From assembly GCF_001583495.1 (NCBI RefSeq), contig NZ_LQAQ01000111.1:186001-250000 (forward strand): a DNA stretch of 64,000 bases. The letters are read 5' to 3'. Below, in pieces: positions 371 to 6,309 of this stretch. Made by a program: the position numbers and the translations under genes. The first letter of the stretch is position 1. Each line of letters opens with the position of its first letter. The notes beneath the pieces are model-generated. The model had not been told where the DNA came from. It ran no database searches and saw only the letters and a program-made list of their open reading frames with translations. The stretch is from Flammeovirga sp. SJP92 (GTDB taxonomy: Bacteria; Bacteroidota; Bacteroidia; Cytophagales; Flammeovirgaceae).

Positions 371-491
371 AAAAAAAAAACTAAAAAATGTATTAAAAAC
401 CCTTTTTAATAAGAATAACATTATAGTATTTTAGCTAAACAAAGTGGTGTTGAAAACCATTAAAACTGGAAATTCTATAAAATCGTTCTTA

Positions 492-3287: not shown

Positions 3288-4397
3288 CTATATGTCTGAA
3301 GCCTCTTTGCCAGAGTTTTTCAAGATAGGAAGCCGATCCATTATCCAATCGAGAGGAGGAACTTTCCAATCAAATCTTCTGACAATATTAAATCGAAATT
3401 GTCCCATCCAGTATAACTCAGTGATGTCATAGCTGGTAGCAATATTATAAGACTCTAGAACGAATGAAAAGCCTAGATAAGTTCTTCTATTATTATAACC
3501 AAAAGCGGTTCTAGTATTCAATTTAAAGCCAGTATCCCAAACATCTTCATTAAACCTACCTTCAGTAGTGTCATACCATGTATTACCGTAATTGAGGCCG
3601 TATCCAAGAGCGAGTGCACCTGTAAAAAAGATGCGTTTGTAAATAATCAATGAGAATGCATATCCACCCATTAATCCAGCACTTCCATAAACACCTTTAA
3701 TGATGTTGTCTTCTAGCTGATATTCCTCTCTTATATGAGATGGAATCAATGAGGAGTCGGCTTTTATATTTAGGAAGTTGATATAAGGACCATAAAGAAG
3801 AGATCCTGCTGTTTTTTTCTGAACCTCTGTTTGTGCAAAAGCGGCTCTGAATGAAAATTTTCTATGGTTTTGAACAAATAAAGTTGAAACACCAATAGTA
3901 TTAATCTTCATGTCACCCCTTAATTGAGTTGGTTGATTACTTTGATTAAAGCTGTTTCTACTTTCATATTCACTGATATAGAATCCATTATAAAATTGTA
4001 AACCGAAATCAATGGCAACTTTTCGTCCGTAAACATAAGAGCGCATATCCAGCTTTTTTGTTTCTCCAAAGGTATCATTATCATTATTAATGGCTGGGAA
4101 GTTGATACCGATGTTAATGCCTAAGCCTCTGTAGTTAAAACCAAAACCTAAGTTTAAGTTGCCATTTGGAGAGTAAACGATCCTTTTGGATTGATCATTA
4201 TTCCCTGTGAGAATAAGGTTATTAAATTTATAAACAGAATATAATCTCAAATGAAGGTCATTGTTGTACGATTTATAATAAGTCGTATCATGATCCAAGA
4301 CAACTTCATTTGGAATAGAATCATTCTGTGCGTATATGTTGTTATAACTATAATACAGTGATAGCGATAACGTAAGTAGAAGCGCGTAAAATTTCAA
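3288..4397 (-). CDS. DUF4421 family outer-membrane beta-barrel protein
   Basis: 369 residues starting with a signal peptide (MKFYALLLTLSLSLYYSY, cleavage near YAQ/ND). The body is a run of amphipathic strands rich in Tyr, Asn and Gly, such as GNLNLGFGFNYRGLGINIG, ending near the C-terminus with an aromatic-rich strand. This pattern and the early YYKSYNND...LRLYSVYKFN segment match the DUF4421 family of Bacteroidota. A location in the outer membrane is inferred from the barrel pattern; no substrate is known. It lies 51 bases downstream of dnaX on the same strand and may be read through from it, though no functional link is obvious. Confidence 0.8.
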   Translation of the reverse strand: MKFYALLLTLSLSLYYSYNNIYAQNDSIPNEVVLDHDTTYYKSYNNDLHLRLYSVYKFNNLILTGNNDQSKRIVYSPNGNLNLGFGFNYRGLGINIGINFPAINNDNDTFGETKKLDMRSYVYGRKVAIDFGLQFYNGFYISEYESRNSFNQSNQPTQLRGDMKINTIGVSTLFVQNHRKFSFRAAFAQTEVQKKTAGSLLYGPYINFLNIKADSSLIPSHIREEYQLEDNIIKGVYGSAGLMGGYAFSLIIYKRIFFTGALALGYGLNYGNTWYDTTEGRFNEDVWDTGFKLNTRTAFGYNNRRTYLGFSFVLESYNIATSYDITELYWMGQFRFNIVRRFDWKVPPLDWIMDRLPILKNSGKEASDI

Positions 4398-4448: not shown

Positions 4449-6268
4449 TTAATCAAAATCAAGTCCAAGCTTTTGCTGTAAAGTTTTCAAAGCTGGATAT
4501 TTCTCTTGTAAGAATTGTAATTTATCTTGAGGAGAATACAAACGTTTAGGTTCTTTGCTTTCTTCAATTTGTATTAATTTGGTAGAAATCTCTATCGTTT
4601 CATTTTTCAACTCTGTTCGGAGTTGTCTTAGAAGCTCAGGTCTTACAATATTCAAATGTTCATTTTGAATAGTATTCGTGATTTCAACAATTATATTTAA
4701 CTGACTATCAAGAGTAATTTCATTTTCGTCTAATAATATACTAGCAAATTTACTCTTTCCATTTTGTCTGTACTCATCAGCAAATGAGGTCCATATTTTT
4801 TTAGCCTGCTCTAAAGTAAAAGATTGGCCTACAATGGCTTTACTCTTTTTAGGTTTACTACTTCCAAAGCTAGGAGCTGGTGGAGGTGTTGGTTGTTGTG
4901 GTGTAGGAGGTATTGAAGAAGCAGTTGAAGCCACCTGTTTTTGTTCAGTAGCTTTAATACTTTTAGCCTTATTAGACAAACCAGACTTAAGTTGTTCTAA
5001 ATTACCTGAAACTTTTGTGGTAGTTTGAATATGAATTTTATTCTCTTGTTGAGTTAGTTCACTCACAAGAGATTTTTTTTCTGCAGGTTTCTTCTCAGCA
5101 CTTAAAGCTTTTTGTTTTGCCTTAAGTTCAGCTAGTCTTTTTTTTTTATTTCTATTTGAGCTAAACGGATGGCTTTATTAATATGTGCCATTTTCATTAA
5201 GGCCAGCTCAACATGAAGACGTTGATTTTTACTTTCTTTGTATTTAGTATCGCAATCACTGCAAATGTTCAATGCCGTCATAATAAATGACATTGGCACT
5301 TCTTTAGCTTGTTGGTCATACCTCTGCTTTACAGTATCAGAAACATCCAATAACTCTAAAGTCACCGTATCCTTACATACTAAAATGTTTCTGAAGTGTT
5401 CAGCTAATCCATTAATGAAATTATGTCCATCAAACCCTTTTCTCAAAATCTCATCAAACACCATCAATGCTTGAGAAGCATCTCCTTTATTTAAGAAGTC
5501 TGTTAGTTTGAAATAGTAATCATAATCCAAAATATGTAGGTTGTCTACTGTTGTTTGGTAATCAATTACATTATTATTAGAGAATGTAACAATCATATCA
5601 AACATGGATAGAGCATCTCTCATACCACCATCTGCTTTTTGAGCAATAAGATGGAGTGCATCATTGTCAGCTTTTATATTTTCATTTGATGCAATTTTTG
5701 AAAGTTGACCTACAATTTCTTTGACAGTGATTCTATTGAAATCAAAAATCTGACAACGAGAAAGAATTGTTGGTAAGATTTTATGTTTTTCAGTAGTGGC
5801 CAAGATAAAGATAGCATAGGATGGGGGCTCTTCTAATGTCTTAAGGAAAGCATTAAAAGCGGCAGTTGAAAGCATGTGCACCTCATCAATAATGTAGACC
5901 TTCTTTTTGCCTGGCTGAGGAGCATATCGAACTTGTTCAATTAAATTTCTGATATCTTCCACGGAGTTGTTGGAAGCAGCGTCAAGTTCAACAATATTTA
6001 AAGAAGCATTATTATTAAAACTAGAACAAGATGCACATTCATTACAAGGGTCTCCTTCCTTTGATAAATTGTCGCAATTGATAGTTTTAGCAAGAATTCT
6101 AGCATTGGTTGTTTTACCCACACCCCTTGGACCACAAAATAAAAATGCTTGTGCTAAGTGATTACTTAAAACAGCATTCTTTAGTGTGTTTGTGATATGT
6201 TCTTGACCAACAACAGTTTGGAATGTATTGGGACGGTACTTACGAGCCGAAACAACGAAATTATCCAT
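4449..6268 (-). CDS. dnaX: DNA polymerase III subunit tau (full-length dnaX product, by -1 frameshift)
   Basis: Clamp-loader subunit tau, 606 residues if the ribosome or polymerase slips at the A10 run at 5138-5147. The first 377 residues are shared with gamma: Walker A GPRGVGKTTN, a four-Cys zinc module (CDN...CNECASC), DEVHML Walker B, and sensor 1 ATTEKHKILPTILSRC. The -1 frame then reads RLAELKAKQKAL and stays open for 229 residues. That part has a Pro-rich linker (IPPTPQQPTPPPAP) and a tau-type C-terminal domain ending YPALKTLQQKLGLDFD, the usual end of Bacteroidota DnaX. No stop lies between slip site and tail. The ATG at 6268 (MDNFVVSARKYRP) is preferred over 6304. A homopolymer sequencing error (A10 for A11) would also explain the split. 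Confidence 0.85.
5100..5147 (-). promoter_or_regulatory. dnaX frameshift signal: A10 slippery run plus downstream stem-loop
   Basis: Reading the minus strand: ten A at 5147-5138, a 10-base spacer holding GAC and the zero-frame TAG stop, then a stem ACTTAAGGC (5127-5119) / GCTTTAAGT (5108-5100) with one G-U pair and a 10-base A-rich loop. Slip run, stop just after it, and a stem at a short spacing are the parts known from dnaX recoding in E. coli (programmed -1) and Thermus (slippage at A9). Confidence 0.7.
5132..6268 (-). CDS. dnaX: DNA polymerase III subunit gamma (short dnaX product, zero frame)
   Basis: Zero-frame reading of dnaX. After ATA AAA AAA AAA GAC comes the stop TAG, giving a 378-residue protein ending IEIKKKD. 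It keeps the AAA+ ATPase and zinc domains plus the helical collar region needed for clamp loading, but lacks the Pro-rich linker and the C-terminal region that in E. coli tau binds DnaB and the polymerase alpha subunit. The short form is analogous to E. coli gamma, which also ends just after a slip site in an A-rich run. Whether both forms are made here is inferred from sequence architecture only. Confidence 0.7.
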   Translation of the reverse strand: MDNFVVSARKYRPNTFQTVVGQEHITNTLKNAVLSNHLAQAFLFCGPRGVGKTTNARILAKTINCDNLSKEGDPCNECASCSSFNNNASLNIVELDAASNNSVEDIRNLIEQVRYAPQPGKKKVYIIDEVHMLSTAAFNAFLKTLEEPPSYAIFILATTEKHKILPTILSRCQIFDFNRITVKEIVGQLSKIASNENIKADNDALHLIAQKADGGMRDALSMFDMIVTFSNNNVIDYQTTVDNLHILDYDYYFKLTDFLNKGDASQALMVFDEILRKGFDGHNFINGLAEHFRNILVCKDTVTLELLDVSDTVKQRYDQQAKEVPMSFIMTALNICSDCDTKYKESKNQRLHVELALMKMAHINKAIRLAQIEIKKKD

Positions 6269-6301
6269 AAAATCCTTTTCAGTTTCTAAAAATATTGAAT
6301 A

Positions 6302-6309
6302 CAAAGTTA
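6302..6309 (-). promoter_or_regulatory. Candidate -7 promoter box for dnaX
   Basis: On the minus strand this reads TAACTTTG, matching TAnnTTTG. A start near 6295 would give a leader of about 27 bases to the ATG at 6268. No clear -33 element is seen. Confidence 0.4.

Follow-up and report, generated by a model that had tools for sequence, protein, structure and literature searches.

A ten-adenine run at the gamma/tau junction of dnaX in Flammeovirga sp. SJP92 and its probable decoding by transcriptional slippage

The dnaX gene studied here lies on the minus strand of a 64,000-nucleotide stretch (the window) of the 8.49-Mb genome of Flammeovirga sp. SJP92, and its gamma-like and tau-like parts occupy two reading frames that meet at ten adenines. 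The question raised by this layout is whether it reflects a miscounted or decayed gene, two separate proteins, or one gene with two products, and, in the last case, whether the ribosome or the RNA polymerase changes the frame. The features concerned are the following:

5132..6268, minus strand: gamma-like product, 378 aa (AAA+ ATPase, lid, domain III), zero frame, ATG to TAG
5138..5147, minus strand: A10 run, presumed slippage site, invariant in 9/9 genus genomes
5132..5134, minus strand: TAG ending gamma in the templated frame, TAG in 9/9 genus genomes
5128..5130, minus strand: TGA ending the third (+1) frame, from sequence reading and the +1-frame stop distance
4449..5137, minus strand: tau C-terminal part, ending GLDFD, in the -1 frame relative to gamma, with a match to the C-terminal part of PRK14971
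5100..5127, minus strand: 9-bp stem-loop, judged to be no conserved part of the signal

Anatomy of the locus and its conservation in the genus

Across the run the zero frame reads ATA AAA AAA AAA GAC TAG, and it stops one codon past the adenines. Its 378-residue product starts at the ATG at 6268; the mechanically called ORF (5132-6304, 390 aa) begins at a TTG 12 codons further upstream. Past the run, the -1 frame has 228-229 open codons before it stops at 4449-4451, with the C-terminal end ...YPALKTLQQKLGLDFD. The +1 frame meets a TGA (5130..5128) two codons past the A10. The gamma ORF contained the Pfam domains DNA_pol3_delta2, DNAX_ATPase_lid and DNA_pol3_gamma3, and exceeded the cut-offs of the NCBIfam models PRK14971 and dnaX_nterm. 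On PRK14971, a whole-protein model of 614 positions, the gamma ORF covered positions 1-365 and the -1-frame ORF positions 443-613, the latter with an E value of 7.6e-19 and a match that falls short of the model's whole-protein cut-off. A sequence-only reading of this locus had described a 378-residue gamma-like product ended by TAG after ten A, a -1 frame open into a tau C-terminus, and a split that falls between domains. Its coordinates and distances were right, the observation of A10, in-frame TAG and tau in the -1 frame was confirmed directly, and a two-product layout, split between the gamma domains and the tau C-terminus, is supported; the TGA of the +1 frame was absent from that reading. 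The gene that follows dnaX (window 3288-4397) encodes a DUF4421 protein (Pfam PF14391).

Homopolymers are a classic site of sequencing error, and a miscount, with a true run of 11 (or 8) A's, had been raised as the main alternative to recoding. All nine genomes of the genus, three of them assembled in 2 to 4 contigs, carried exactly ten A's, the stop and the -1 tau frame, while the flanking bases varied (the TAG is preceded by GAC or GAT in the eight other genomes). The same layout was found in 7/7 fetched loci from other genera of the same family. Runs of A10 or longer were rare in the genome: 31 distinct runs were counted on both strands, equivalent to 41 overlapping positions, vs about 811 positions expected under a first-order Markov model of the window, that is, approximately 20-fold fewer. 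Since such runs are rare and this one was kept in every genus genome, the dnaX A10 is beyond chance, and a miscount is practically excluded. Loss of tau by gene decay is contradicted by the tau part itself, which was retained and matches its family, so that error and decay together are left with a minute likelihood.

Other long A runs of the genome and genus were recorded as leads only. An A10 lies between the histidine-phosphatase and DEAD-box helicase domains of a single ORF (L151 and L176-L184, from contig C35 of this genome and from the genus), with off-frame stops within 5 codons; it was present in 4/9 genus genomes, and the other five had no run of A8 or longer there. A GT2-DUF2062 gene, found in 2/9 genus genomes at E <= 1e-80, has an A11 and a single frame in the genome of the window (L149 / L173) and an A10 with a split in two frames in genome G004 (L174, L175), a natural one-base difference. 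A second A10 of the window (371-380, plus strand; L169) lies outside any long ORF.

The sequence-only reading had also proposed that run, stop and downstream stem together form a recoding signal. The run and the stop held, and the stem is indeed present, with nine pairs including one G-U (5127..5100), beginning 10 bases past the A10. All nine pairs occurred only in the genome of the window, and in the eight other species of the genus the pairing fell to 8, 6, 7, 4, 4, 3, 5 and 5 of 9. Shuffled alignment columns reached the paired percentage of the stem in 198/500 cases, and the fold was ordinary (z = -1.03; 31/200 shuffles fold at least as well). The stem was poorly kept in relatives, matched by shuffled columns and ordinary in its fold, and it was therefore rejected as a stimulator and left out of the signal; of the two comparisons with relatives suggested beforehand, run length was borne out and stem conservation was not.

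The junction run across Bacteroidota and the probable mechanism

DnaX loci were fetched from three sources: the best 30 from the genome of the window and its relatives (37/38 genomes with a match), the best 80 of at least 594 matching stretches in named records, and the best 30 from 295 genomes drawn across the class, 284 of which gave a match. After three duplicates were dropped from these 140 loci, 137 were analysed; they are the loci most similar to the gene of the window, and the sample is thus uneven and leans towards this dnaX.

A run of A9 to A13 was present at the gamma/tau junction in 119/137 loci, mostly as A10 (n = 95), followed by A9 (n = 15), A11 (n = 7), A12 (n = 1) and A13 (n = 1); genes with GC contents as high as 66% carried it. 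Within 251 kb of dnaX sequence, 118 of the 127 runs of A9 or longer fell in one stretch of about 60 residues. The junction runs started in all three codon phases (0/1/2 = 16/53/50), indicating that the bases are kept, not the lysines.

Frame classes were defined by which frame stays open for more than 90 codons. The zero frame led into tau in 75 of the 119 run loci; gamma was templated with tau in the -1 frame in 42, and with tau in the +1 frame in one (L107). The remaining locus, L130, had two frames open to its end and its assignment was unclear. On a FastTree tree of DnaX the templated product changed at least 20 times, a count that tree error can inflate. Relatives with a single-frame dnaX, regarded beforehand as evidence against recoding, were thus found (the 75 loci with tau in the zero frame), yet they keep the A run and have the other two frames stopped. 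This alternation bears on the possibility that the locus encodes two separate proteins, with gamma ending at the TAG and the C-terminal domain restarted at a GTG. A possible GTG start does exist at 5066 (ORF 4449-5066), but around the same run relatives alternate between templating the fusion and templating the split form, which is sensible only if all of them make the fusion, and we consider separate proteins very improbable.

Stops in the frames that do not lead to tau were close to the run. Among loci with tau in the zero frame, the -1 frame stopped within six codons in 74/75 and the +1 frame in 64/75, the latter vs a mean of 38% elsewhere in the same genes. Among loci with gamma in the zero frame, the zero frame stopped within six codons in 42/42 and the +1 frame in 39/42, vs 47% elsewhere in the same genes. 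None of 2000 draws, made against the background averages of 38-47% and with kinship ignored, reached any of the observed values; kinship is ignored in the locus counts as well. These third-frame stops could be partly a damage-limiting trait of any long A run: in 6/8 of the other A10+ runs in long sense ORFs of the genome, both other frames stopped within 8 codons.

Taken together, the sequences make it likely that the dnaX of the window is a two-product gene whose decoding relies on transcriptional slippage. While transcribing the ten A's, RNA polymerase would produce mixed mRNAs, with 10 A's or with one or more A's added or lost. The mRNA of templated length would give gamma, ending at the TAG; one extra A, or any other change that brings the message into the -1 frame, would give tau with its C-terminal part, which by arithmetic would have 606 residues with one added A; a shift in the opposite direction would run into a stop after two codons and yield a gamma-like protein once more. 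We infer that the mRNA is heterogeneous in this manner, that both proteins, in some ratio, are made, and that the polymerase rather than the ribosome is the main slipper.

The main competing explanation is that ribosomes shift to -1 or slide on the tandem AAA lysine codons and make tau from a uniform mRNA, with or without the stem. Ribosomes have been reported to slide on poly-A (PMC4363877), and the window has A_AAA_AAA in the right phase and a 9-bp stem 10 nt downstream. Tau sits in the -1 frame in every genome of the genus and likewise in the seven loci fetched from other genera of the family; that the shift direction never flips within the genus limits the case for slippage. On the other side, the stem is neither conserved nor unusual, no Shine-Dalgarno-like stretch was seen upstream when read by eye, and the length A10 is kept in every codon phase, with tau in the zero frame, in -1 and once in +1. 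The third frame is stopped as well: a -1 shift by the ribosome needs one close stop and a mixed mRNA needs both, so that close stops in both non-tau frames favour slippage. Runs in all phases, stops in both frames and at least 20 changes of product therefore favour transcriptional over ribosomal shifting. Moreover, Antonov et al. (PMC3711429) regard it as a mark of transcriptional realignment when orthologues no longer share one shift direction, and by this mark the sampled group slips in transcription. Ribosomal shifting is accordingly regarded as unlikely, though well ahead of the separate-protein explanation. The programmed frameshift proposed by the sequence-only reading is hence upheld as to its two products, not as to its stem, and probably not as to a ribosomal mechanism, since relatives with the run stop both non-tau frames.

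Bacteroidales loci without the run

Eighteen of the 137 loci had no run of A9 or longer at the junction, 13 of them labelled Bacteroidales. Three of the 18 (L077, L091 and L093) showed an in-frame TAG at the junction, with the same frame continuing to the tau end. The family of L093 was then surveyed (101 genomes searched, 97 with a match, of which 70 loci, L185-L254, were fetched and 27 were not); two loci were too short and 68 were scored, among them L185, from the genome of L093, and L205, from that of L091. An in-frame TAG followed by AT[TAC]GC was found in 29 of the 68, and a run of A9 or longer within 330 nt of the gamma end in 22, none of which had the TAG element too; the other 17 had neither, some of them with an A10 further on. 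L201 was left out, as it has two close TAGs in that frame and a rearranged element, which leaves 28/68. With L077, which came from the other search and stands outside the 68, there were 29 clean elements (L077, L185-L198, L203-L206, L208, L210-L212, L214, L215, L217, L219, L221 and L222).

In the element, the in-frame UAG is followed by a conserved AUWGCNAGR and then, exactly 10 nt after the UAG, by a covarying hairpin. The tau part continued in the UAG frame for 186 to 254 codons to a tau-like end in 29/29. A stem of at least three pairs starting exactly 10 nt after the TAG was present in 29/29; among the 56 other start positions, the two neighbouring positions reached 18 and 12 of 29 and no other exceeded 8. 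At the first pair, 17 elements have C-G and 12 have G-C; at the second, 17 have G-C, 7 C-G, 4 U-G and 1 U-A; at the third, 27 have C-G and 2 U-G. A conserved CAY after the hairpin is not tied to a single codon phase (one phase in 17 elements, another in 12), and the element is therefore kept as RNA, not as peptide. RNAalifold on a MAFFT alignment of the element gave no pairs, the short hairpin was no more stable than shuffles (mean z -0.5), and an Rfam search with a 501-base stretch of one locus (L186) returned a single match far below the gathering score. The hairpin is a candidate suggested by its position and covariation in mutually related sequences.

A dispersed repeat was rejected, with exactly one match per genome in 12/12 genomes, all of them selected because their hairpin has the CGCC form. 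Reassignment of UAG to sense was rejected likewise: RF1 scored over the cut-off in 29/30 genomes (G426, which may be incomplete, was below), and in 20 stretches of 19-20 kb TAG ended 53 ORFs of at least 150 codons besides the 13 dnaX counted. The frame stayed open for at least 60 codons past the stop in 10/52 measurable cases for TAG, 21/115 for TAA and 14/78 for TGA. With RF1 present and TAG ending many ORFs with ordinary downstream frames, UAG stays a normal stop in these genomes. Re-initiation after the UAG was also discarded, as the distance to the first in-frame ATG ranges from 23 to 209 codons, with no fixed position. The element is thus put forward as a candidate for programmed readthrough that would make tau in place of the A10 slippage site, with gamma as the terminated product; a dnaX with stop readthrough was not found in our literature search.

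Two further Bacteroidales genes, L066 (at about 4090 of the locus) and L252, had a zero frame ending at the junction and a +1 frame open for 249 and 201 codons, respectively, with no long A run there; assembly errors are possible in both.

A different, conserved hairpin was observed at the junction in Bacteroidaceae. In the family of L072, titled Bacteroides sp. (41 genomes searched, 40 with a match, 30 loci, L275-L304), 26/30 loci carried a GC-rich hairpin of at least four pairs 40-100 nt after a fixed junction anchor, vs 0 to 9 of 30 when other windows along these genes were scored. It was mostly GGGC-loop-GCCC, with UUCG, GCAA and other loops; in L300 the hairpin scored is a different one, and GGGC-TTT-GCCC is also in its sequence. 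The four loci without it were L284, L286, L289 and L301; in L289, the only sampled member with an A11 there, a gamma stop accompanies the run, and a G10 run lies nearby in L301.

Two DnaX products and comparison with known systems

The role of the short DnaX protein, gamma, was long controversial in E. coli (PMC5009743). The kept run, the stopping of both wrong frames and the swapping of the templated product are strong comparative evidence that both products matter beyond E. coli and Thermus. We lean, if only slightly, towards the view that two-protein output is selected in Bacteroidota dnaX while the decoding trick is exchangeable, with A10 slippage in most sampled lineages and UAG readthrough in a part (28/68 scored loci) of one Bacteroidales family. 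If the UAG element is real, a single gene, dnaX, would have slippage, ribosomal frameshifting and stop readthrough serving the same end in different bacteria. The surveyed loci also amount to a large natural set of constructs in which slippage could be measured, with run length, frame and context all known.

In E. coli, dnaX is decoded by -1 ribosomal frameshifting at A_AAA_AAG with a Shine-Dalgarno-like stimulator and a stem-loop (PMC3711429, PMC5009743). The gene, the two products and the -1 direction are shared with the window, which differs in its longer run, its reversed templated product and the lack of a conserved stem. The A10 contains an A_AAA_AAA heptamer in the zero frame, not A_AAA_AAG in that phase. 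The stem keeps 3-8 of 9 pairs in eight species (z -1.03), the upstream bases tttagctcaaatagaaat, read by eye, hold no Shine-Dalgarno-like stimulator, and the shift direction is constant in the genus though not in the wider set.

The type of dnaX found in the window has already been described. In the GeneTack dnaX cluster of Antonov et al. 2013 (PMC3711429), 17 genes split into two ORFs are spread over 12 genera. Nine of them have 10 A's, and the authors infer programmed transcriptional realignment by the Thermus mechanism; as in the window, the genes have two adjacent ORFs offset by -1 in the DNA itself, and a run of 10 A's. Class-wide conservation, changes of frame and stops in both frames, as observed here, were not found in the available part of that paper, nor was a class-wide picture of A-run conservation in dnaX found in a literature search that included the available text of the three dnaX-recoding papers.

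In Thermus thermophilus, transcription of dnaX slips at a run of 9 A's (Larsen et al. 2000, as cited in PMC1088944 and PMC5009743), a case described by Baranov et al. 2005 (PMC1088944), with the two products in about equal amounts. Both genes have a dnaX A run and close stops in both non-tau frames: in the window, a sense run of at least nine A's sits at the junction, both non-tau frames stop close by, and net slippage can reach the frame in which the tau C-terminus is open. Thermus templates tau and makes gamma by slippage, whereas in the window gamma is the templated product, and its relatives include both layouts.
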